NCBI GenBank assembly: GCA_026414565.1 | Contig: JAOAIT010000038.1 | Span: forward strand, 1 to 64,000 | Length of the DNA stretch: 64,000 nucleotides | Reading direction: 5' to 3' | Origin: Verrucomicrobiia bacterium | GTDB taxonomy: Bacteria > Verrucomicrobiota > Verrucomicrobiia > Limisphaerales > Fontisphaeraceae | In this document: positions 42,072-54,597 of the stretch, piece by piece | How positions within the stretch are numbered: position 1 is the stretch's first letter | How the letters are laid out: each line of letters begins with the position of its first letter | Notes under the pieces: generated by a model | The model's database searches: none | Told to the model about the DNA's origin: nothing | Seen by the model: only the letters and a program-made list of their open reading frames with translations | Translations under genes and position numbers: made by a program

Positions 42072-43109
42072 ATGAGCAAAACGGTTAATGTCGGAGTCAT
42101 CGGGCTGGGCTTCATGGGGGTGACGCATCTCAAAGCCATGCAAAAACTGCCGCAGGCGCGGGTGGTCGCCGTGTGCGACGCGGTGCGCCGGCCGGAGAAC
42201 GGGCAGATCAGTGCCGGGGGCAATGTGGGCGATGGCCGGCCGGTGACCCTGGACATGAACGTGGTGCGAGTGTACCAGGATTACCGCGAGCTGTTGCAGG
42301 ACCCGCAGGTGGAGATGGTGGACATCTGCCTGCCTACGCCGTTGCATCCCGAGGTGGCCCTGGCCGCGCTGGCGGCGGGCAAGCATGTGCTTTGTGAAAA
42401 ACCTATGGCCCGCACCAGCGCCCTGGCGCGGCAGATGGTCGAGGCGGCCCGCCAGGCGCAGGGTTATCTGATGCCCGCCATGTGCATGCGCTTTTGGCCG
42501 GGGTGGACCTGGCTCAAAAACGTGGTGGACAGCGGCCAATACGGGCGCGTGCTTGCCGCCCGCTTCCGCCGCGTGGCGGAGCCGCCCGCGTGGAGCAAAT
42601 CGCAGTTCATGGACGGCCAGAAATCGGGCGGAGCGCTGCTGGATTTGCACATTCACGATGTGGACTTTGTCCAGTATTGCTTTGGGCGGCCGCAATCCGT
42701 GTTTGCCACCGGCTACACCTGCCTGAGTGGCGCCATTGACCATGTGGTGGCGCAGTACCGCGTGGCCGGCGGGGCCATTGTCCACGCCGAGGGCGGGTGG
42801 GCCATGGCGCCGGGTTTTGGCTTCAGTATGAGTTACACCGTCAACTTCGAACGTGCCACGGCGGATTTTGACGTGGCCCGCGGTGAGGAGGCGCTCAAGG
42901 TGTTTGTGGAGGGCCAGCCGCCCCTGGTGGTCAGGAGCGAGGGACCTGATGGTTACGTGGGCGAGATTGCGCATTTCCTGGACAGCATCCTCGCCGGCCG
43001 GCCGCCCAGCGTGGTGACGGCCGCCGACGGGCTTAGCGCCATTGAAATTTGCGAGGCCGAGGAGGCCTCGATTGCCAGCGGTCAACCCCAGCCGCAGGCC
43101 GCGCGTTAA
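42072..43109 (+). CDS. Gfo/Idh/MocA-family oxidoreductase (cytoplasmic)
   Basis: A protein of 345 residues with no signal. The Rossmann start VNVGVIGLGFMGVTHLKAMQ, the ICLPTPLHPEVALAALAAGKH segment and CEKPMART (EKP) define the family; the middle has SGGALLDLHIHDVDFVQYCFG with the conserved His/Asp. NAD(P)-dependent dehydrogenase or reductase of a sugar or inositol-like substrate. It follows the reductase/TIM-barrel fusion and is likely cotranscribed. Its TAA shares bases with the stop of the Ehr-complex gene on the other strand. Confidence 0.92.
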   Translation: MSKTVNVGVIGLGFMGVTHLKAMQKLPQARVVAVCDAVRRPENGQISAGGNVGDGRPVTLDMNVVRVYQDYRELLQDPQVEMVDICLPTPLHPEVALAALAAGKHVLCEKPMARTSALARQMVEAARQAQGYLMPAMCMRFWPGWTWLKNVVDSGQYGRVLAARFRRVAEPPAWSKSQFMDGQKSGGALLDLHIHDVDFVQYCFGRPQSVFATGYTCLSGAIDHVVAQYRVAGGAIVHAEGGWAMAPGFGFSMSYTVNFERATADFDVARGEEALKVFVEGQPPLVVRSEGPDGYVGEIAHFLDSILAGRPPSVVTAADGLSAIEICEAEEASIASGQPQPQAAR

Positions 43110-43882
43110 GTGGGCGTGGCCGGCTTGGGCAGCCGTCCCAGGAGACGCAGGAGTCCGTCCAGAATCGTCAGGGGATGCGGCGGGCAGCCGGGAATGAATA
43201 AATCCACCGGCACGACGGCGGCGGCGCCATTGCGCACCTGCGGCAGCTCCACAAAAGGCCCGCCGGCAATGGCGCAGGCGCCCACGGCAATCACCAGCCG
43301 CGGCGGGGGCACGGCCTCGTAAGTCTTGCGCAGGGGCAGCTCCATGTTGCGGGTCACCGGACCGGTGATGAGGAGTCCGTCGGCGTGGCGCGGGGAGGCC
43401 ACAAACTGGATGCCGAAGCGGCCGAGATCCCAGCCCACGGTGGTGAGCACATTGGTGTCGGCTTCGCAGGCGTTGCAGCCGCCGGCGCTGACCTGGCGCA
43501 GTTTGAGCGAACGCCCGAACAGGCGGCGGCATTCCTTGTCGAGCTGCCGGGCCAGGGCATATTCGTGGCCGGTGAACTGCAAATCTTCGCGCCGGCGGAC
43601 GGCCAGGCGGTGTTCGGAGGTGAATCGGATGGCTTGCGCGGGGCAGCTTTGCTCGCACAGCGGGCAAAACAGGCAGCGGCCCAGGTCCAGCGCCAGCCCC
43701 TGCGGTGTGTGGCGGATGGCCTGCGTGGGGCAGAGCTCTTCGCAAATCTGGCAGCCCGGCGGGCAGCGGGTGGGGTCCAACTGCGGGCGTCCGCGCAGGC
43801 GGTCGGGCAGGGGCGGCAGCTCCCGCGGATAGGGCAGGGTGCGGTGTCCTTGATGCCAGCGCGCGGCCAGAACTCTTAGCAT
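43106..43882 (-). CDS. Ehr-like complex: ferredoxin-type plus small (NuoB/HycG-like) subunit
   Basis: A protein of 258 residues. Residues 35-90 hold two 4Fe-4S motifs: C40, C44, C47, C51 and C70, C73, C76, C80 (NuoI-like). Residues ~125-245 are the small subunit with cluster N2-type ligands C136, C139 (GGCNACE), C203 and C232 (PGCPP). It therefore joins the electron-transfer and small subunits in one chain. The subunits would pass electrons to the large subunit at the cytoplasmic membrane surface. The ATG at 43882 has AGGAGG upstream. Last gene of the operon. Confidence 0.9.
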   Translation of the reverse strand: MLRVLAARWHQGHRTLPYPRELPPLPDRLRGRPQLDPTRCPPGCQICEELCPTQAIRHTPQGLALDLGRCLFCPLCEQSCPAQAIRFTSEHRLAVRRREDLQFTGHEYALARQLDKECRRLFGRSLKLRQVSAGGCNACEADTNVLTTVGWDLGRFGIQFVASPRHADGLLITGPVTRNMELPLRKTYEAVPPPRLVIAVGACAIAGGPFVELPQVRNGAAAVVPVDLFIPGCPPHPLTILDGLLRLLGRLPKPATPT

Positions 43883-43892
43883 GGGGGCCTCC

Positions 43893-45401
43893 TTACAAAT
43901 CGTGTCCGCAATAGGACAGGTTGAAACTTTTGTTGCAGAGCGGGAAATCCGAGATTTGCTGTTCCCGCAGGGCCATGGCCAGGCCAAACCAGTTGTGGAA
44001 CGAGGGGTCCACGATTTTGTAGTGGGCCAGCCTGCCTGCGGCATCGGTCATGGCCACGTGGCAGATTTCGCCGCGCCAGCCCTCGACCAGTGCGACGGCC
44101 ACTTGCTGAGGGGCCAACGGGGGAAGGGGGACATGGATGGGGCCGGGGGGCAGGGTGTGGAGCAGATCGCGCAGGAACGCCGCCGAGCGCTGCATTTCCA
44201 GCCAGCGCACAAAAGCGCGGGCATACACGTTGCCGGTGGCAAAGGTGGAAACGGGGATTTGCTGAAAGCAGTATCTGCCCCAGGGCAGGTCCCGGCGCAC
44301 ATCCTGCTCCACGCCGCAGGCGCGGACGGCCGGCCCCACCAGCCCCAGAGCCACGGCGGTCTGGCGCGACAGCGCCCCCGCATTTTCAAAACGGGCGCGC
44401 ACGGAAGAAGTGTTCCACAACAGATCCACGGCGTTGGCCGCATCCTCCATGGCCTGGGCCAGAACTTTTTCCAGCGCCTGCAGGCGGTCGGCCCCGGCAT
44501 CGAAGCGCACCCCGCCGGGGAGCAACAGGCCGCGGCCAAAGCGGTTGCCACAGAGCAGGGCGGTCAGGTTGAGAAAGTCGCCCCGAATGCGGCCGCAGTA
44601 GGCGGCGGTGGGCAGAAAGCCCACGTCGCCGGCCAGCGCGCCCAGATCGCCGGTGTGATTGGCCAGGCGCTCCAGCTCGAGTGCCAGGGCGCGCAGAGCC
44701 TGCGCCCGGGGCGGTGCGGGCGTCTGGCTCAGGGATTCGAGGACCTGGCAATAAGCCGTGGCATGGCCGATGGTGGTGTCCCCGGCCACAGTTTCCATCA
44801 TGGCGAGCGTGCGGCGATTGGGGCCGCCGCGCAACGCGGGTTCCACCCCCCGATGCTGGTAGCCGAGAGATATTTCCAAGTGCATCACGCGCTCCCCATG
44901 GCATTGGAAACGAAAATGGCCCGGTTCAATGATGCCCGCGTGGACCGGGCCAACCGCCACTTCATGCACCTCCTCTCCCTCCACGCGAAAGTAATCCGTG
45001 ACCCCCGGCTCCGGCGCCGGGGGCGTGCCGGCCGCCGGCCGCCAGGCGGGATGGAACCGAATGGGCTTCAGCCAGGGGTGGCCTTCAGGATGCACGCCCC
45101 ATTGTTCCGCCATCTCGCGCTCAAACCAGTGCGCCTGGGGACAATCAGGGGTGAGGGCGGGGTACTTTTCCCCCACGGGTGCGGAACCCAGCAGCTCCAG
45201 GCGGCCTTCCTGATCGTGCGCCAACACCGCCATCAACCGCAGCGCCTCCGCCTCGCCGGGCAGACCGAAGAGCGCGGCGAGGCGGGCGCCGCCGGCCACC
45301 GCCTCGCAAATGCGTTGGCGAAACTCGGTAACTGTGGCCTCCGGAATTGCTGCCGCCGCCACGATGCCACCGTTGGCGATCCTGCAACCAGGTGTTTTCA
45401 T
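43893..45401 (-). CDS. Ehr-like complex: NuoC/D-type large subunit without Ni ligands
   Basis: A 502-residue HycE/HyfG-like fused subunit: an N-terminal NuoC-like part (~20-130, HWFEREMAEQWGVHPEGHPW) and a NuoD/large-subunit part (~135-502, VGPVHAGIIEPGHFRF, YQHRGVEPAL). In real [NiFe] enzymes the RxCGxC motif sits after HRGxE; here that site reads METVAGDTTIGH (202-213). The C-terminal DPCxxC site reads DPSFHNW (465-471). All four Ni-ligand cysteines are absent. The last residues, ISDFPLCNKSFNLSYCGHDL, are typical of hydrogenase-related complexes. It is probably not an H2 enzyme. AGGAGG precedes ATG 45401, in the operon. Confidence 0.9.
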   Translation of the reverse strand: MKTPGCRIANGGIVAAAAIPEATVTEFRQRICEAVAGGARLAALFGLPGEAEALRLMAVLAHDQEGRLELLGSAPVGEKYPALTPDCPQAHWFEREMAEQWGVHPEGHPWLKPIRFHPAWRPAAGTPPAPEPGVTDYFRVEGEEVHEVAVGPVHAGIIEPGHFRFQCHGERVMHLEISLGYQHRGVEPALRGGPNRRTLAMMETVAGDTTIGHATAYCQVLESLSQTPAPPRAQALRALALELERLANHTGDLGALAGDVGFLPTAAYCGRIRGDFLNLTALLCGNRFGRGLLLPGGVRFDAGADRLQALEKVLAQAMEDAANAVDLLWNTSSVRARFENAGALSRQTAVALGLVGPAVRACGVEQDVRRDLPWGRYCFQQIPVSTFATGNVYARAFVRWLEMQRSAAFLRDLLHTLPPGPIHVPLPPLAPQQVAVALVEGWRGEICHVAMTDAAGRLAHYKIVDPSFHNWFGLAMALREQQISDFPLCNKSFNLSYCGHDL

Positions 45402-45402
45402 G

Positions 45403-46890
45403 TCAAAATCCTCCTGCCGCGCGCGCGGCTTCACGCACCAGCGCCGCCAGCGGGCCTGGCAGATACAGGCCCAGGACGGCGGCCAGGCATATTAACACCA
45501 GAGGAGGCATGGCCATCCAGGTCCGTCTTTCCACGGCCTGCTCGGGACCATGCGCAGGACAGGTGGACGGACCCTGGCCCATTTCCAAAAACGCCGAGGC
45601 CATGCCCATGAAGGCCACCGCCAGGGCGGCGAGGGCGGCCACGGCCACCCACAAATGACCCCGTTCCACCGCCCCGCGGAGCAGGAGCCATTCGCTAAAA
45701 AAGGAGCCAAAAGGCGGCGCCCCGGTGATGGCGAGGAATCCTGCCAGCCACAAACCGCCGGGCAGGGGCAGCGCCCGCAAGACCCCGCGCACCCGGCTGA
45801 TGTCCTTGGAGTGATAGGCATCCAAAATCAGGCCGGCGGTGAGAAACAGGCCGGCTTTGGCGAGCGAATGAAAAATGGCATGCAACAGGGCGGCCATGGC
45901 CCCCACGCCCCCCACGCCCACCCCCAGCGCCAGCAAGCCCATGTGCTCGATGCTCGAATAAGCCAGCAGGCGCTTGTAGTCCTTCTGGCCGAGGATGAAC
46001 ACCGCCGCCACCCCCAGCGAGCTCAAGCCCAGGAGGAGCAGCAAGTGTTGTCCAAATTCGGCCAACCCCGCCGCCTGGCAAACCTCCTGCAACCGCCAGA
46101 GCCCCAGGAAGGCGCAGTTCAACAAGGCGCCGGACAACAACGCCGACACCACCGACGGGGCCTCACTATGGGCATCCGGCAACCAGGTATGGAGGGGGGC
46201 CAGGCCCATCTTGGCGCCGTAACCCACCAGCATCAAAATGAAGGCTGCCTTCAGCCATTGCGGTTGCAGCTCTGCGCCGTGCTGGACCAGGTTTTCCACG
46301 ACCAGGGCCAGGGGTTTGCCGCTGGCGGTTGAGATGGTGGCCACGCCGAGGAAAAACGTGCCCAGCAAGGCCAGCGCAATGCCCACCGAGCAGATCAACA
46401 AATACTTCCAGGTGGCCTCCAGCGAGCGCCGGTTGCGGTGATAATAAATGAGCGGGGCACTGGCCAGGGTGGTGGCCTCGATGGCCACCCACAACAACCC
46501 AAAGTGATGGCTGAGGGCCACCAGGGTCATGGCGGCCAGAAACAGCAACTGGCAGCCGATAAACACGGATTCAGGCGCCGGGCTGAGCAGCTCGGGCTCG
46601 CCGGTTTCGCGGGGGGCGGGCGCGGCGTGCTGCTGATTCAGGTAACCCACCCCATACACTGCTGCCGCCAGGAACAGCACGCTGGTGAGGCTCAGGAACA
46701 ACAGCCCGGCCGCATCCACCGCCAGCCAGCCATCCAGCCCGGGCGGGGGTCGTTGAATCCAGCAAAGGGCCGTCAATCCCGCATGACCGGCGGCGGCCGT
46801 CACCCACAAGCCGCGGCGCACGCCGGCATGGCGGAGGAAAAAGGCCGCCAGTCCGGCCACCGCAGGCAGCAGAAGCAGAGAGGTCATCAT
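45403..46890 (-). CDS. Ehr-like complex: antiporter-like membrane subunit (HyfF/NuoN-like)
   Basis: A protein of 495 residues with about 14 membrane helices of the Complex I/Mrp antiporter family. Proton-path residues are kept: Glu in VAIEATTLAS, Lys in LVGYGAKMGLAPLHTWLPDA, and a Lys in FHSLAKAGLFL. Also QKDYKRLLAYSSIEHMGLLA. Predicted to move protons (or Na+) across the inner membrane during electron transfer. Ends one base before the start of the large subunit gene. Confidence 0.9.
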   Translation of the reverse strand: MMTSLLLLPAVAGLAAFFLRHAGVRRGLWVTAAAGHAGLTALCWIQRPPPGLDGWLAVDAAGLLFLSLTSVLFLAAAVYGVGYLNQQHAAPAPRETGEPELLSPAPESVFIGCQLLFLAAMTLVALSHHFGLLWVAIEATTLASAPLIYYHRNRRSLEATWKYLLICSVGIALALLGTFFLGVATISTASGKPLALVVENLVQHGAELQPQWLKAAFILMLVGYGAKMGLAPLHTWLPDAHSEAPSVVSALLSGALLNCAFLGLWRLQEVCQAAGLAEFGQHLLLLLGLSSLGVAAVFILGQKDYKRLLAYSSIEHMGLLALGVGVGGVGAMAALLHAIFHSLAKAGLFLTAGLILDAYHSKDISRVRGVLRALPLPGGLWLAGFLAITGAPPFGSFFSEWLLLRGAVERGHLWVAVAALAALAVAFMGMASAFLEMGQGPSTCPAHGPEQAVERRTWMAMPPLVLICLAAVLGLYLPGPLAALVREAARAAGGF

Positions 46891-46895
46891 AATTA

Positions 46896-47534
46896 TTAAT
46901 CCCTCAAATGGGAGAGGCGGTCGGTATCCATGTGGTCAAACTCCCGGCTGATGTGAAAGACCATGATGCCCATGAGAAAGACCGCCACAAAAACATCCAG
47001 CAACACCCCCATTTCAATGAGCAGCGACAGCTCGCCCATGACGCCCGCGCCGAAGGTGAAGATGCCGTTTTCCAGCACAATAAACCCCAGCACCTGATTT
47101 ACGGCCCGTTTGCGGGCAATGATGAGAAACAGCCCGCACCACATGCCCAGCATGGCCACCGGGGCCAGAAAACGCGAAGCCAGCGGCGCGGGCAGGGGCA
47201 GATGGCTGGCGATCCAGAAGGAGGCCCCCAGCGCCAGCACGCCAAACAACAGACTCAAACCGTAGCCCACATACGGCTCCACCTCCCGGCTGACCTCCGC
47301 CTCGCGCAAAGTGCGGAAGAGCAACCGGGGAAAGACATAGCCCTTGAGCAGGGCGCTGCCCAGGGCCAGGGCCACGCCCCGCATCCCCGGCGTCTCGCCC
47401 CCCGCCAGCAAGGGCAGTAGCGAGAGAAGAATGCCCTGGAGGGCGGTGGTGCGAATACAGGCCCCGAGCCGGCTGGAGGCCAGTAGGCGCAGATGGGTCA
47501 ATAAAACCAGGATTAAAAGGAAATCAATCAACAT
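46896..47534 (-). CDS. Ehr-like complex: HyfE-like membrane subunit
   Basis: A protein of 212 residues with about six hydrophobic helices (LIDFLLILVLLTHLRLLASS at the start; NQVLGFIVLENGIFTFGAG in the second half with the conserved Glu). It matches hydrogenase-4 component E, which contains a NuoK-like part. The gene ends 5 bases before the next start. Confidence 0.85.
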   Translation of the reverse strand: MLIDFLLILVLLTHLRLLASSRLGACIRTTALQGILLSLLPLLAGGETPGMRGVALALGSALLKGYVFPRLLFRTLREAEVSREVEPYVGYGLSLLFGVLALGASFWIASHLPLPAPLASRFLAPVAMLGMWCGLFLIIARKRAVNQVLGFIVLENGIFTFGAGVMGELSLLIEMGVLLDVFVAVFLMGIMVFHISREFDHMDTDRLSHLRD

Positions 47535-47543
47535 AAACCGGGA

Positions 47544-48455
47544 TCAGGGTTGAGAAGCGGCCAGCAGCAGGGCCACCGCCGCCAGCACGGTGGCGCCCCA
47601 CAAAAACTGCGGCACCGTGAGCAAACGCAGGCGGGCCATGGTGGATTCCACCACCCCCACCCCCATGCCGATGACCATCACGGCCGCCGTGCCGGTGAGC
47701 AGGGTCAGCCACGGGGAGCCCGCCTGCAACGGCAGCGCCACCGAGGCCACCAGCGCGGCAAACAACCAGAGCTTCAGCGCCGCCGCATATTGAATCAGGG
47801 CGAAATCCGGCCCCCCGTGGTCCAGCACCATGACCTCATGGATCATGGTCAGCTCCAGATGCGTATTGGGATCATCCACCGGAATGCGCGCGTTTTCCGC
47901 CAGCAACACCAGAAACAGGGCCGCCACCACCAGAATCAGCGATGGCCCGGAAGCAAGCCAGTGTCCTGCATTCAGCCGGCCCAACATGCCGCTGAGGGAA
48001 TTGTCGCCTACCATCAGCACCAGCGTGCCCAGCCCCAGCAACAGGGCCGGCTCGGCCAATGCCGAGAACTGCACCTCGCGGCTGGCGCCCATGCCCTCAA
48101 AGCTGGAGCCGGTATCCAGCGCCGCCAGCACGATGAACAAGCGGGCCAGGCCCAGCAGATAGGCCATCACCACGAAATCCCCGGCAAACGACAGCGGGGC
48201 CGGCAGGTGGAGCAAAGGCAGCAACATCAGGGCGGCCACGGTGCACACCAGCGCGACGACTGGCCCGGCGCGAAACACCCAGGAAGTGGTGCGGCTGTAC
48301 ACCGCTCCTTTGCGCAACAGCTTCCCCAGATCATAATACAATTGCAGCAGGGGCGGCCCCTGGCGTCCGGCAAAAAAGGCCTTGGTACGATGGATCACCC
48401 CCAGCAGCAGGGGGGCGAGCAACAGGCCCAGCAAAGGTGGGACAAACGCGATCAT
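47544..48455 (-). CDS. Ehr-like complex: NuoH/HyfC-like membrane subunit
   Basis: A 303-residue NuoH-like protein with about eight helices. Key acidic residues of the quinone/proton pathway are kept: REVQFSALAEPALLLGLG, DDPNTHLELTMIHEVMVLDH. Its first helix and RTKAFFAGRQGPPLLQLYYD match the family start. It is the connection between the soluble arm and the membrane arm. Confidence 0.9.
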   Translation of the reverse strand: MIAFVPPLLGLLLAPLLLGVIHRTKAFFAGRQGPPLLQLYYDLGKLLRKGAVYSRTTSWVFRAGPVVALVCTVAALMLLPLLHLPAPLSFAGDFVVMAYLLGLARLFIVLAALDTGSSFEGMGASREVQFSALAEPALLLGLGTLVLMVGDNSLSGMLGRLNAGHWLASGPSLILVVAALFLVLLAENARIPVDDPNTHLELTMIHEVMVLDHGGPDFALIQYAAALKLWLFAALVASVALPLQAGSPWLTLLTGTAAVMVIGMGVGVVESTMARLRLLTVPQFLWGATVLAAVALLLAASQP

Positions 48456-48459
48456 GGCA

Positions 48460-50457
48460 TTATCTCAAGGCAAACAACAACAAGGCCAGCAGGGTGAGCG
48501 CCAGGTACAGCACATAGAGATGCACATTGCCATGCTGCAACCAGCGGAGCCGCCCCAGAGTCTCCCGGAGCCGGCCAAACAACGGTTGATAAAGCTCGCG
48601 CTGGCTGGTGTCCGGGGTGTCGGTGGCCAGGGAGGCATGCCGCGGGAAAAAGCCCTCCGGCGGCCGGCCCTGGGTTTGCGGCCGCAAGAGCGCCTGAAAC
48701 TGCAGGGTGAGCGGCTGCACAAACGAGGAGGCGGTGTATTGCATCCGGGCCGTGGGCTGCGCGTAGCCGCAATCCCAGGTCACCGCCCGGCTCACCGGCC
48801 GCGCCCGCAGCCAGACCCGGCGCAGGAGTGCCACCAGGGCCACGAGGATGATGAGGCCGCCGCCCAGGGCGCTCAGCCGCCAAAGCAGTGCCTGCTGGCG
48901 TGCCAGCACCGCCAACAGCCGCTCGTTGCCGGAAATTCCAGGAACCGGGCAAAGCGCGGTGATCAGGGGCGTCAAGATCTTCCACCCCAGCGGAGCCAGC
49001 AGGGCGACCAGCCCGCATGCCGCCGCCAGGAGCAGCAGCCCGCTGCGCATGGCCGGCCCGGATTCATGTGCATGAAGGGCGGCCGTACTGCGCGGCTCGC
49101 CCAGAAAGGCCACGCCCACCGCCTTCGTGAAACAGACCAGGGCCAGGCCGCCCATCAAAGCCAGTCCGGCCAGCGTCAGGGCGCCGGCCAGCGCCGCCCT
49201 GCCATGCGCGCTGTTCAGCCCGTCCACCGCGCCCAGGTACAATAAAAACTCGCTTAGAAAACCGTTCAGGGGCGGCAGGCCGACGATGGCGATGGCCCCC
49301 ACCAGGAAGCATGCGGCGGTCCAGGGCATGCGCCGGAGCAGTCCGCCCAGTTGCTCCAGGTTGCGGGTGCCGGCGCCGTGCAGCACACTGCCGGCGCCCA
49401 AAAAGAGCAAACTCTTGAACAACGCATGATTGAGGACATGCAGCAGTGCTCCGGCCCAACCGGCCACGGCCAGCGCCGGCAATTTCCAGGCGACTCCCAG
49501 CAGTCCCAGGCCCGCGCCCAGCGTAATAATGCCCATGTTTTCCACGCTCGAATAGGCCAGCAGGCGTTTGAGGTCTTTTTGGGCCAGCGCCAGCAAAATG
49601 CCAAAGACGCCGGAAACCAATCCCACCGTAAAGAACAGCCAGCCCCACCATTCCGGCCAGTTTGCGAAAAAACTCAGGCTGCGCAACAGCCCGTAGATGC
49701 CGGTTTTGATCATCACGCCCGACATCAGCGCCGAAATATGACTGGGCGCTGCCGGATGAGCCTCCGGCAGCCAGACATGCAGGGGCATGAAACCGGCTTT
49801 GACGCCAAAGCCCAGGATCGCCAGCAAAAACCAGGCACCCAGGGCATGGCCGTCCACCGGTTGCGCCGCCCAAGCGGCAAAATCCATGGAACCCGCCAAG
49901 TGGCCCCGCCAGAGAAAGAACGTCAGCAGAAAAGCCGCCCCCAAATGGGAGGCGACCAGGTAAATCCAGCCGGCCCGGCGATGGGCGGGTGATTCATCCT
50001 CGTAGGTGACCAGGAAAAATGAAGCCACCGTCATGATCTCCCATGCCGCCAGAAACAGCACGGCATCCCGCGCCACCACCACCAGGGCCATGCCGCCCAC
50101 CAACAGGTTGGAGAAAAACCAGCCTGCGGCCGGCGAGCGCCGGCCTTGTGCGGGTTGCCCATAGCCTGCGCCATAAAGCGCGGTGACGGCCGCCAGCCAC
50201 GCAATCACCAGCAGAAACCAGGCTGTAAGGGGGTCCACAGCCACATGAAACTGACCAGCCGCCGACGGCCACTGCAGGCGCCAGCTCGTGACCTCCGCGG
50301 AGAGCAAGGCGTCCAGGGCGGCGGCACCCGCAAAGAGGGCGCCGCCCATTTGAGCGGCCATCCCCATGAGGATGGCCAAGCGGGGATGTCGGCGCACCAG
50401 CAGGGGCAGCAAACCGCCGAAAAACCAAAAGCTCAGGGCCAATCCCATCTTGTTCAT
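48460..50457 (-). CDS. Ehr-like complex: HyfB-like (NuoL/M) membrane subunit
   Basis: A 665-residue NuoL/NuoM-like antiporter subunit with about 16 helices. It has AAWEIMTVASFFLVTYEDES (Glu), LGFGVKAGFMPLHVWLPEAH (Lys), KTGIYGLLRSL, and QKDLKRLLAYSSVENMG. Predicted H+ pump subunit. Its ATG (50457) overlaps the stop of the PTS-like regulator gene (50454-50456). Confidence 0.9.
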   Translation of the reverse strand: MNKMGLALSFWFFGGLLPLLVRRHPRLAILMGMAAQMGGALFAGAAALDALLSAEVTSWRLQWPSAAGQFHVAVDPLTAWFLLVIAWLAAVTALYGAGYGQPAQGRRSPAAGWFFSNLLVGGMALVVVARDAVLFLAAWEIMTVASFFLVTYEDESPAHRRAGWIYLVASHLGAAFLLTFFLWRGHLAGSMDFAAWAAQPVDGHALGAWFLLAILGFGVKAGFMPLHVWLPEAHPAAPSHISALMSGVMIKTGIYGLLRSLSFFANWPEWWGWLFFTVGLVSGVFGILLALAQKDLKRLLAYSSVENMGIITLGAGLGLLGVAWKLPALAVAGWAGALLHVLNHALFKSLLFLGAGSVLHGAGTRNLEQLGGLLRRMPWTAACFLVGAIAIVGLPPLNGFLSEFLLYLGAVDGLNSAHGRAALAGALTLAGLALMGGLALVCFTKAVGVAFLGEPRSTAALHAHESGPAMRSGLLLLAAACGLVALLAPLGWKILTPLITALCPVPGISGNERLLAVLARQQALLWRLSALGGGLIILVALVALLRRVWLRARPVSRAVTWDCGYAQPTARMQYTASSFVQPLTLQFQALLRPQTQGRPPEGFFPRHASLATDTPDTSQRELYQPLFGRLRETLGRLRWLQHGNVHLYVLYLALTLLALLLFALR

Positions 50458-51161
50458 AATTTCTTGGCGGGGGGGGTGTTTCGTGCGGCGGCCAGCCCGG
50501 CCTCTGTGGCGGCCACGGCGGCCAGCAGATCCTGCTCACCGGCCCGCGCGCTCAGCAATGCTTTAAGGCGGGCATCGCGCAGGCCATAGGCCAGGCGTGC
50601 CAGCAAATGCAAATGCACCTTGACCGTGGGCGAAATCAGGAGGAACAACGCAAACACCGGCTGCCCGTCCAGGGCGCCGAAGTCCACCGGCTGGCGGAGA
50701 AAGCACAGGCTCACCAGGGGCCTGGCAAGGTCCAGCACGATGGGATGGCGGGGATGAGGAATGGCCACGCCTTCGCCCACGGCGGTGGACTCCAGCGATT
50801 CCCGCGCCCAGAGCAGCGCCCACAGCCAGTCGCGGTTGATGCTGGGGGGCAGCCGCAACCGGTTGACCACCGCACGCAGCACGGATTGCTTGTCTGCCCC
50901 CTCCACGCCGTAATGCACTCCACCTGCGGTCAACGCCTCAGCCAGCGTGGGCAGGGGCGAGGCATCGTTCTCCGCTGCAGCGAGAAACTGCGGGGAAAGC
51001 GGAAGCCGCTGCATGGCCGCCCATTCCAGCACCTCCTCGCGGCTGAAGCGCAACCAGGAGCCGTCGCGGAACGCCGGCAGTTGGCGTTCCTTGACCCAGC
51101 GATGGATGGTCTTCTCCGAGACATCAAAAGCGCGAGCCACATCTTGAACGGTCCATTGCAT
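50454..51161 (-). CDS. DNA-binding protein with PTS EIIA(Ntr)-like domain, first gene of the Ehr operon
   Basis: A protein of 235 residues. Residues 1-60 are a MerR/excisionase-type helix-turn-helix (WTVQDVARAFDVSEKTIHRW, then WLRFSREEVLEWAA). Residues ~70-215 are a PTS EIIA-like domain of the fructose/PtsN type, with VAIPHPRH (His136, the usual phosphorylated His) and HLHLLARLAYGL. It overlaps the HyfB-like gene by 4 bases, so it is translated with the complex. Likely a sensor of phosphotransfer state that regulates the operon; there is no PTS enzyme I or HPr in the window. Its own SD is weak. Confidence 0.85.
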   Translation of the reverse strand: MQWTVQDVARAFDVSEKTIHRWVKERQLPAFRDGSWLRFSREEVLEWAAMQRLPLSPQFLAAAENDASPLPTLAEALTAGGVHYGVEGADKQSVLRAVVNRLRLPPSINRDWLWALLWARESLESTAVGEGVAIPHPRHPIVLDLARPLVSLCFLRQPVDFGALDGQPVFALFLLISPTVKVHLHLLARLAYGLRDARLKALLSARAGEQDLLAAVAATEAGLAAARNTPPAKKL

Positions 51162-51330
51162 GGATAGAAAGGGGCTGGGGCGTCTCAAGACGCCCGGGAT
51201 AAGGCGGCGGCAGGAAAATCCGGCTCACCGCTGGGGGCAGGAGCTCCGGGCACAGTGCGGGCCTGCGGTTCAATCCCTGGCGGATTGCCGTCCCACCACC
51301 GCGGCTGGACGCGATGCTCCATGCCTGCCA

Positions 51331-51375
51331 CAAAGAAAAACACCCAAAACCACCTCGAAAGGCACTTTTGGGTGT
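51331..51375 (-). terminator. Terminator-like hairpin in the Ehr-operon leader (possible attenuator)
   Basis: ACACCCAAAA (51340-51349) and TTTTGGGTGT (51366-51375) are perfect 10-bp arms with an inner CCT/AGG pair. On the minus strand the stem is followed by TTTTCTTT. No minus-strand gene lies upstream of it before the divergent gene at 51842, so a terminator here can only act on the operon leader itself. Confidence 0.6.
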
Positions 51376-51460
51376 CGGATGTCCAAAAGATGGGGAGCTT
51401 CTTCTCTATGCGGGAGCTTATCCCGCCGGAGACGCTTCCCTTCCTAACGGTAGGTAGTAA

Positions 51461-51484
51461 GAACTTGAACGCAAAAGTTGTCAA
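51461..51484 (-). promoter_or_regulatory. Candidate promoter for the Ehr operon
   Basis: On the minus strand a perfect -35 hexamer TTGACA (51479-51484) is followed at about 18 bases by TTACTA as a weak -10. It would give a ~300-base leader containing the terminator-like hairpin before the ATG at 51161. Confidence 0.35.
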
Positions 51485-51841
51485 GGGGGGACGTGGACGG
51501 GAGCTCAAGGGGGTGTGGCGGTGTGCGGGCCGGAGCCGGGTTTGTGCCGCGGGTAAATCCTTCAGCTGTCCCCCCGCGGGGGCGAGACGTTGTGCGGACG
51601 GGGACAAAACCCGCGGCCTGGCGGCCAAGTTCAGCAACACATTTGGCGGCCTCCGAGGAAGGCGGCATTGTCGTGAACGGCCCTGGAGGGGCGGAGGAGG
51701 CGGAGGGGGGGGGTGATTTGCGCGCTTGCAATCCTGTGCGCGACAGCCCATGCTGTTCAGATTGAATTGCCCTGAGGAAAAAGGGCAAGGCAACACACCT
51801 GCTGTGCACTCGATGCAGTCCACAACAGGCCTTGGGTATCT

Positions 51842-53608
51842 ATGAGCGAAAGTCTGCCATTATTGGATTTGGAACGGATGTTCCTGCCGGCCTGGGCCAA
51901 AGAGGCGCCGCCCGCCAACCGCTTTGAACATTACACGGGCGAGGAAGAAAGCGGGGGCCGCCGCCGTGGTCCCGGGAGACGTCGTGAAGGTTTTGGTGAA
52001 CCGCGCCGTGGAGACCGGGGACCGGGCCCGGCAGCCGAGCGTCAGGGCCAGCGCCCTCCCGCCCGCTCCGCCGAGCAGGGCGCGCAGCGCCCGCCGCCTC
52101 CGCGGGGACGCCGGGATCACCGCCGCTCCGGGCCGCCCCGGCCGGTGGAGCGGGAGCCATTGCCCAAAGTCAGGGTGGGCATCACCATTGAAGAGAAAGT
52201 GGCGGACAGCCTGGCCCGGCAAATCCGCGCCACGGGGCGCTCGTATCCCATTTTTGATCTGGCCCGTTTGATTCTGCAAAAGAACGAGCGTTTTCTGATC
52301 CGCTTCCACGTCCTGAAAAACCAGAGCGGGGCCATCGAGCAGCCGCTTTACCGTTGCGCACTGGATGAAACGGTGTGGACCGACAAGGAGGAGGCGGTGC
52401 AGTACCTGCTGGACAAGCATTTTGACATGTTCTATCAGGCCGAGCGCACGCCCACGGCGCCCCCCAAGGGGGTGTACACCTTTGTGGCGGTGTGCGATCT
52501 CAACGGGGCGGTGTTGGGCCCGCCCAATTACCACGGTTATCAGGAGGAATTGCGCCGGCTGCACCGCGAGCACTTTGCGCACCTGCCCCTGGAGGTTTTC
52601 AAGTCCAAGATTCGCATTGTGCGCGATGAAGCCGTGGTCAAGAAGTGGATTGAAGACCAGAGCTGGAAGACGGAATACGTGTGCCTGAACGTGCCGGAGG
52701 CGCCCCGGCTGGCCGACCGCGAGAGTGTGTTGGCGCACTTCCGTGAAGTGCACCTGCCCAACGTGTTGCAGGAAGTGGAATCCCACTCGCTCAACGGGCA
52801 GGCGGCCCTGCAGTTGCCCTGCCGCGGCCTGCGGCGGCTGGCCTTGCAGCTCATCGAAAAACAGCGCCGCTTCCCGCTGGAGCTGGTCCATTCCTTGAGC
52901 GCGCTGTTCAACGAGCGCAAGTTGCAGTTTTTCAAGCTGGAAAAGGACATCACTTACGTGGGCGTGGCCCGGCCGCATTACCTGGATTTGGAGACGTCCA
53001 TTGTCTCCGACAACGTGCGCCGCATCATCCAGTTCATTCAACAAAATCCTGGCAGCACCCGCCAGAAACTCATCGAGGCGCTGGCACCCGCGCCGCCTTC
53101 GGCCGTCCCGGCCGTGGAAGCGCCTGCCTCCGACGGGCAAGCCGGGGGCACGGCGGCTGCCGCCGAAGCCCCGCCAGGCGGCCAGCCTGCGGCGCCGCCG
53201 GCGCCGGAGCCCACGCCGGAGCAGATGGCCATTATCAGCGATTTGCACTGGCTGGTGCATCAAGGGCACGTCTTGGAGCTGGCCACCGGCGTGCTGCTTA
53301 CCGCCAAAAAACCCGCGCCCAAACCGCCCAAACCTGCTCCGGCTCCTGCGCCGGCCGCCCCGGCCGCGGAGGTGGCGGCTACGGGATCGGCGGAGGCTGG
53401 TGCCGCCGCAGCGGCTGCAGAGGCCGTCACCACCGCGCCCACGCCTGATGCGGCAGGGGCTGCGGCTGCGGAGCCAGAGGCCAACTCCTCCCTGCCGGCC
53501 GAGGGGGGAACCCTGGCTGCTGCGCCTACCGCGGAGGAGCCGTCCTCATGTCCGGCCGCTCCGGCGGGGGTGGTGGAGGAATCGCGCCCTGCTACTGAGG
53601 GTTGCTAG
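51842..53608 (+). CDS. Conserved-looking protein of unknown function with disordered ends
   Basis: A protein of 588 residues. Residues ~30-115 are Arg/Pro/Gly-rich and disordered. Residues ~115-410 are a compact, well-structured domain (EEKVADSLARQIRATGRSYP, DLARLILQKNERFLIRFHVL, RGLRRLALQLIEKQRRFPLE, FFKLEKDITYVGVARPHYLD). The C-terminal ~180 residues are Ala/Pro-rich, interrupted by a helix-like piece (EQMAIISDLHWLVHQGHVLE) that resembles a winged-helix or coil. I do not recognise a family; the basic N-terminus and the RFHVLKN block would fit RNA or ribosome binding, but this is only impression. Confidence 0.8.
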   Translation: MSESLPLLDLERMFLPAWAKEAPPANRFEHYTGEEESGGRRRGPGRRREGFGEPRRGDRGPGPAAERQGQRPPARSAEQGAQRPPPPRGRRDHRRSGPPRPVEREPLPKVRVGITIEEKVADSLARQIRATGRSYPIFDLARLILQKNERFLIRFHVLKNQSGAIEQPLYRCALDETVWTDKEEAVQYLLDKHFDMFYQAERTPTAPPKGVYTFVAVCDLNGAVLGPPNYHGYQEELRRLHREHFAHLPLEVFKSKIRIVRDEAVVKKWIEDQSWKTEYVCLNVPEAPRLADRESVLAHFREVHLPNVLQEVESHSLNGQAALQLPCRGLRRLALQLIEKQRRFPLELVHSLSALFNERKLQFFKLEKDITYVGVARPHYLDLETSIVSDNVRRIIQFIQQNPGSTRQKLIEALAPAPPSAVPAVEAPASDGQAGGTAAAAEAPPGGQPAAPPAPEPTPEQMAIISDLHWLVHQGHVLELATGVLLTAKKPAPKPPKPAPAPAPAAPAAEVAATGSAEAGAAAAAAEAVTTAPTPDAAGAAAAEPEANSSLPAEGGTLAAAPTAEEPSSCPAAPAGVVEESRPATEGC

Positions 53609-53694: not shown

Positions 53695-54597
53695 TTACGC
53701 GTTTTGGGGGAGTGGCCCTCGGGCCGTGTCCGGCCAGTTCACGGCGAGGACGCGCTCGATGCGCTGATAATCCTGCTCCAGAGCCATAATCTGCCAGCCT
53801 GCCGCCGTGAAAATCTGGCTCACTGCCGCGGCCTGGCCATGCCCCAGTTCCATCCACAAAGTGCCGCCCGGGGCAAGGTAGGGGGGGCTTTCTCGAGCCA
53901 GTCGGCGATAAAAGAGGAGGCCGTCGGTGCCTCCATCCAATGCCGGCCGTGGATCATGCTCGCGCACTTCGGGCTCGAGTTGGGCGATTTCCGCGGTGGG
54001 AATGTAGGGCGGATTGGCCACCACCAGATCAAAGCGGGAATCGGAGGGTACGGCGGCGTAGCCATCGCTGAGCAGGAAATGAATGCGCCCGCCCACTCCA
54101 TTTTTTTCCGCATTCTGCCGGGCCAGGGACAAGGCCTCGGAGGAGAGGTCGAGGGCCGTCACTTGCGCCTGGGGGAATTGTCGGGCCAGGCCAATCGCCA
54201 GGCAGCCGGAGCCGGTGCCCCAGTCAAGGAGGCGCGGGGAGGGCGGTGCCCCCGGCTGCGCCAGGCGCGCCGTCAGCCAGCGGGCGGCGTGCTCCAATAA
54301 TAATTCGGTTTCCGGCCGTGGGATCAGGGCCTGCGGGGTGGTAAGCAATTCAAAATCGCCAAAGGCCACCGTGCCCACCAGATGTTGCAGCGGCTCGCGC
54401 GCGGCGCGGCGGCGCAGGAGTTGCCGCATTTGTTCCAGGGCGGGCTCCGCGACGGCTTGATCAAAGCGCAGGTAAAGCTGCAGGCGCTGGGTTTGCAGGA
54501 CATGCGCCAGCAGACATTCCGCCTGCCACCGCGCCGAGGACACACCGTGCCGCTCCAAATAAGCCGTGCTTTTCTGAATGACTTCGAGGATGGTCAC
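53695..54597 (-). CDS. prmC: Peptide chain release factor N5-glutamine methyltransferase
   Basis: A 300-residue protein of the HemK/PrmC family. It methylates the Gln of the GGQ motif of release factors RF1/RF2 with SAM, in the cytoplasm. N-terminal helical domain (1-85), then IPRPETELLLEHA, the SAM loop LLDWGTGSGCLAIGLA (123-138) and the catalytic NPPY (195-198) with VVANPPYIPTAEI. The prfA gene, its usual neighbour, is not visible. The gene ends before a poly-T-rich spacer shared with the convergent 51842 gene. Confidence 0.95.
   Translation of the reverse strand: MTILEVIQKSTAYLERHGVSSARWQAECLLAHVLQTQRLQLYLRFDQAVAEPALEQMRQLLRRRAAREPLQHLVGTVAFGDFELLTTPQALIPRPETELLLEHAARWLTARLAQPGAPPSPRLLDWGTGSGCLAIGLARQFPQAQVTALDLSSEALSLARQNAEKNGVGGRIHFLLSDGYAAVPSDSRFDLVVANPPYIPTAEIAQLEPEVREHDPRPALDGGTDGLLFYRRLARESPPYLAPGGTLWMELGHGQAAAVSQIFTAAGWQIMALEQDYQRIERVLAVNWPDTARGPLPQNA

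Follow-up and report, generated by a model that had tools for sequence, protein, structure and literature searches.

Organization of the Ehr operon and its regulator

The minus strand of the window (the whole 64-kb stretch of DNA analyzed here) harbors an Ehr/Hyf-type operon (43106-50457) coding for HyfB-like, NADHdh (HyfC-like), q2-like (HyfE), HyfF-like, 49+30 kDa and ferredoxin+20 kDa subunits, headed by a first gene (50454-51161, minus strand) whose product, here termed the regulator, carries HTH_17 (E 9.9e-12) and PTS_EIIA_2 (E 2.6e-18) domains. Group 4 hydrogenases carry an N-terminal CxxC motif in their large subunit; by eye, the large-subunit-like protein encoded at 43893-45434 (minus strand) has none, which fits the name Ehr. 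A previous description (PMC6349859) presents Ehr complexes as widespread and related to both complex I and group 4 hydrogenases, with a catalytic partner that is not known in many organisms.

Close orthologues of the regulator were identified in 23 of the 320 genomes of the order, counting that of the window itself, and are absent from G001, the one further genome of the genus, and from G002, the other genome of the family. A contig scan for orthologues, from which the best 80 of 399 loci were kept, yielded loci labelled as Verrucomicrobia, Planctomycetes, Kiritimatiellae, Lentisphaerae, Acidobacteria, Spirochaetes, Deltaproteobacteria and others. Among these best 80 loci, 75 have at least 1500 nt of downstream sequence, and in 69 of the 75 a HyfB-like gene starts within 1500 nt on the same strand; it lies farther off in L096, L123, L132 and L135, while L071 and L102 present no Ehr match in the available stretch. 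Viral relatives of the regulator were searched for and none was found, and a literature search returned nothing on this protein, which is no proof that nothing is in print.

A terminator-like hairpin upstream of the regulator gene

Upstream of the regulator gene, the minus strand encodes a terminator-like hairpin (51339-51376) with 10 Watson-Crick pairs plus a G-U pair, an inner 5-pair stem and a UUCG loop, directly followed on its 3' side by the U-tract TTTTCTTT (51332-51339). The perfect 10-pair stem joins ACACCCAAAA (51375-51366) to TTTTGGGTGT (51349-51340), is extended on its outer side by the single G-U pair, and encloses a G.G mismatch and then the TGCCT/AGGTG inner stem with its UUCG loop. 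The segment 51378-51332 folds with -22.2 kcal/mol (z -4.63), an energy equalled by 0 of 200 shuffles, and the hairpin retains pair probabilities of 0.86-1.0 in the fold of the whole leader. A scan for stems of at least 8 perfect pairs, with loops of up to 20 nt and at least 6 T in the 8 positions after the stem, returned 4 sites in the window, every one on the minus strand, whereas first-order Markov shuffles of the window (n=20) averaged 0.0; the leader hairpin alone reaches 10 pairs, the other three sites having shorter perfect stems. On the plus strand, no T-run lies 3' of it. Its absence from the results of a terminator scan (loop 3-8) is due to the 16 nt enclosed by the 10-pair stem. The hairpin shows the arrangement expected of intrinsic terminators, a stable stem-loop directly 5' of a U-rich tract, and hairpin and U-tract together are terminator-like far beyond chance. 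The preliminary description of this DNA had reported a stem of 10 perfect pairs followed by TTTTCTTT, and coordinates, pairing and shuffle test all bear this out.

The candidate promoter of the leader is a TTGACA hexamer (51479-51484, minus strand), the first base of which lies 323 nt before the ATG at 51161 and which had been read beforehand as a perfect -35 element. It is followed, at a spacing of 17 nt, by a weak -10 candidate, CTTACT (51456-51461, minus strand; 3/6). Together they match 9 of 12 consensus positions and form the sole promoter-like site on the minus strand between 51500 and the gene, the best site between hairpin and gene reaching only 6/12; a promoter scan at its set threshold called no promoter at the locus. 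We infer that transcription starts near 51449, which would give a leader of some 288 nt and agrees with the length of about 300 bases originally proposed. The GC content is 68% in the 170 nt from hairpin to ATG versus 51% in the stretch between promoter and hairpin. The upstream part of the putative leader RNA contains an imperfect stem-loop (51392-51440, minus strand; -21.4 kcal/mol, z -2.51), but the same segment folds better on the plus strand (-28.1 kcal/mol, z -4.85), and hence this stem does not favor the minus strand. A second perfect hairpin, GGGCGTC-TTGA-GACGCCC (51178-51195, minus strand; 7 bp, TTGA loop), is separated by 16 nt from the regulator's start codon; no T-run follows it, and it may affect translation.

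Genomic setting

The next gene upstream of TTGACA is divergent (51842-53608, plus strand). The claim that no minus-strand gene lies upstream therefore holds for the immediate neighbor; the nearest gene on the minus strand is PrmC-like and ends at 53695. The closest genome, G001, lacks the operon: the divergent gene there adjoins a fasciclin-like gene instead (so named from a reading of its translated start and end, not from a family search), homology to the window stops near 51690, and the gene flanking the other end of the operon has a 90% identical copy in G001 about 158 kb away. The operon thus occupies a site not shared with G001, the nearest sequenced relative, and, judging from this one genome, the leader may have arisen on the arrival of the operon. 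This setting would also suit a constitutive insulator that halts stray transcription arising in the GC-rich intergenic region between the divergent genes, or a relic of a former neighbor, yet no minus-strand gene ends just upstream and TTGACA stands between any such transcript source and the hairpin; we regard this explanation as improbable.

A promoter-operator common to regulator orthologues

Upstream regions were compared for 79 of the best 80 of 399 loci, L064 having been dropped. Of the 79 orthologues, 49 have TTGACA no more than 130 nt from the start codon, compared with 13 of 426 length-matched control blocks located farther upstream, and the direct repeat TGTC[CT]-N3-6-TGTC is found within the same distance in 40 of the 79, compared with a single control block (1/426). 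The modal position of the -35 element is -77, and expectation-maximisation over the 79 regions converged on the motif TTGACATTTnTGGACATtnTtttnAnAaTGTCCAaaaTTGTCCA, a promoter-operator composed of TTGACA, GGACA and a TGTCC direct repeat, with a period of 10 in its common form. The resulting family matrix scores above 10 in 49 of the 79 regions, a figure that is no independent test since the matrix was trained on those same regions, and about 30 of the 79 lack the motif at a score of 10; the promoter-operator is thus common, not universal. Weak -10 elements are frequent in this family as well: among the 52 orthologues with the -35 element at its usual place it matches 3/6 in 16 and 2/6 in 2. Examples of the TTGACA / GGACA / TGTCC arrangement ahead of the first Ehr/Hyf-operon gene can be seen in many phyla (L062-L141).

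The HTH-EIIA protein may bind the TGTCC repeats, to judge from their resemblance to the sites of BldC and from their position upstream of the gene that encodes it. According to the BldC study (PMC5859096), the Streptomyces protein recognizes direct repeats with GGACA (CAATTCGGACAATTCGGACA) at a period of 9; the regulator family shares with BldC a winged HTH of the excisionase/MerR-like kind and an operator built as a direct repeat (TGTCC), and departs from it in the period of 10. The regulator also differs in its fused EIIA domain, and its score of 28.4 bits against the HTH_BldC model falls short of the curated cut-off of 77. To our mind, the promoter-operator of the family is a more useful result than the attenuator reading of the hairpin. 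Its tie to a PTS-like regulator offers a testable handle on the timing of Ehr complex production.

Loss of the operator in the window lineage

The window departs from this pattern. Its TTGACA lies at -323, with no TGTCC or GGACA nearby, and is the best match to the family matrix in the 700 nt upstream of the gene by virtue of the -35 element alone (51484-51479; score -3.5, the top score anywhere in the window being 8.6). The comparison of upstream regions indicates that the TGTCC operator of the family has been lost in the window lineage. The hexamer might also be a chance match, leaving the hairpin outside any transcript: about 0.1 occurrences are expected on the intergenic minus strand (an estimate from base composition), the -10 element is weak and no operator adjoins it. 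Against this, it coincides with the top family-matrix match in 700 nt and has no competing site, and we hold a fortuitous hexamer to be the least likely of the explanations weighed here. A reverse-orientation ATGTCCAAAAGATG within the leader (51383-51396, plus strand) resembled a displaced operator but was discarded, as it obtains no score with the family matrix. A tandem TGTCTATTNN array in the same genome (L155, 490-540) actually consists of AATAGACACG-like repeats between two genes and is no operator of this type.

The regulator itself is also divergent. Among 83 distinct proteins, no other falls below its mean identity in the HTH region (0.496), and only one does so in the EIIA region (0.545). 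Its HTH-minus-EIIA difference is the second most negative, exceeded by that of L130, and it sits on the longest terminal branch of all (0.646, against a median of 0.19). It presents two unique residues, His at position 20 (Tyr in 98% of the others) and Trp at position 36 (Gln in 96%). Its grouping partners (support 0.909), the proteins of L071 and L102, carry Leu at residue 20 and likewise have low operator scores (-7.3 and -9.0, respectively). However, L108, L119 and L130 have another residue at 36 and keep the operator, and 28 of the 77 proteins with Tyr20 belong to regions scoring below 10, so that the coincidence of protein change and operator loss rests on three cases.

Search for relatives of the leader

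No convincing homologous leader, in which compensating changes in the stem might be counted, was found in the 320 genomes of the order. Apart from the window itself, a blastn search with the leader returned six short matches (23-30 nt; per-genome E 0.001-0.005), close to the chance expectation for 320 genomes. A model built from the single window sequence gave one weak match in the 320 genomes (L158, E 3e-4), rejected as a leader homologue since this hairpin lies where another gene ends, one that is dihydroorotate-dehydrogenase-like by reading of the sequence, and none in the 80 operon loci (best 80 of 399). The leader is thus no conserved leader RNA within the genomes and loci covered. A repeat or mobile element was likewise discarded, the leader being present once in its own genome, where other matches span 15-30 nt. 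In the orthologous upstream regions (up to 400 nt, some shorter), the leader terminator hairpin is found in none of 79 (from the best 80 of 399 loci); the sole region with a similar hairpin, that of L062, has it some 368 nt from the start codon, upstream of the TTGACA of that region (near -75). Judging from these upstream sequences, the terminator is no part of the design of the regulator family. A literature search on leader attenuation in this phylum found nothing.

This distribution bears on the possibility of a small-RNA gene of about 115 nt, with its promoter at 51484, two stem-loops and a terminator ending at 51332, the operon being served by its own unrecognized downstream promoter. A constitutive terminator would fit an identical anatomy, the terminator dominates the fold ensemble and 51442-51332 folds with a z of -3.51. 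No promoter-like site above 6/12 lies between 51331 and the gene, however, and neither sequence nor structure has a relative in the 320 genomes or in the 80 operon loci (best 80 of 399), which leaves a small RNA a doubtful candidate.

Is termination conditional?

The preliminary description had taken conditional termination of the operon as the simplest role of the hairpin. Part of this stands: a terminator-like hairpin does lie between the sole promoter-like site and the first gene, and the leader contains a candidate transient antiterminator, CTTTTGG (51383-51389, minus strand), able to form 7 bp with 51371-51365 in the 5' arm of the terminator. A 7-nt perfect complement in that stretch is rarer than chance (14 of 5000 shuffles). 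In simulated folding of the growing leader, the upstream stem-loop forms first, followed by the 7-bp alternative pairing while the RNA ends at 51365-51352, and the terminator wins once its 3' arm has emerged, so that its predicted default state is 'on'. Conditionality itself is not supported. The alternative pairing has a probability of 0 in the full leader at equilibrium and amounts to -2.6 kcal/mol by itself (z -0.68; 48 of 200 shuffles are as good), and no stable antiterminator was found in the leader folds. Between 51449 and 51376 there is neither an ATG nor any other start preceded by a convincing ribosome site, and hence the leader peptide 5' of the terminator that characterizes ribosome-controlled attenuators is lacking; the start codons listed as candidates for such a peptide were discarded on the same ground. 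No Rfam 15 family matches the leader at gathering score, and a riboswitch or other known RNA was rejected because the search at E up to 5 gave a single match, a human lncRNA (13.6 bits versus 60), attributable to chance. Adding to this, none of the 79 orthologous upstream regions has such a hairpin in its leader. Any conditional control would need either to keep the transient pairing in place or to target the polymerase.

Known leader terminators and attenuators (riboswitch, T-box, protein- or ribosome-controlled) resemble the window in their GC/AT-mixed hairpin and U-tract, located in a long untranslated leader of an operon for biosynthesis or energy metabolism. The window leader differs in having no recognized aptamer, leader peptide or stable antiterminator. 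Factor-dependent processive antitermination at leader terminators, of the LoaP/NusG type, is a further comparable system, in that it would need no alternative RNA structure.

A putative leader terminator and a possible replacement of operator control

Attenuation is the most likely single role of the terminator, given its position downstream of the only promoter in sight. Our tentative reading, somewhat short of an even chance, is that 51376-51332 acts as an intrinsic terminator within the untranslated leader of the Ehr operon transcript, attenuating expression; we would expect this role to be about as probable as all its rivals combined. The shuffle tests, the pair probability of 0.86-1.0, the sole 9/12 promoter-like site, the GC contrast, the family TTGACA and the 7-nt competitor make it plausible, and the absence of a stable antiterminator, leader peptide, Rfam match or conservation, the weak -10 element and the lack of the operon in G001 count against it. 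Transcription would start near 51449 behind TTGACA and proceed through the upstream stem-loop into the terminator, which would release polymerase in vivo, and only the fraction of polymerase passing it would reach the regulator gene and the operon. Read-through might be regulated, perhaps via a held 51389-51383:51371-51365 pairing or via a factor acting on the polymerase.

The terminator control may have replaced an ancestral operator control, the hairpin possibly substituting for the lost switch site near the promoter. With similar reserve, falling just under evens, we consider the hairpin a leader terminator specific to this lineage and ordinary in kind, which either took the place of operator control or accompanied its loss. 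A broader scheme, which we judge rather unlikely, is that Ehr operons in many phyla are controlled at initiation by their own HTH-EIIA protein acting on TGTCC repeats, coupled to phosphotransfer status, and that the lineage of the window lost this operator, remodelled the DNA-binding domain and shifted control to a terminator within a longer leader. As a natural exception, with operator lost, regulator changed and terminator present, the window lets one ask how control of an operon is exchanged from initiation to termination.

Other terminator-like sites occur in the window. A GC-rich terminator-like hairpin, GCCCGGAGG...CCTCCGGGC, is found twice on the minus strand (2509-2486 and 3149-3126), about 640 nt apart and near a tRNA gene (2308-2379), and a 9-bp perfect stem followed by TTTTCGTT (44952-44917, minus strand) lies inside the open reading frame for the 49+30 kDa subunit. 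Hence, the DNA of this organism does have ordinary sites of this type.
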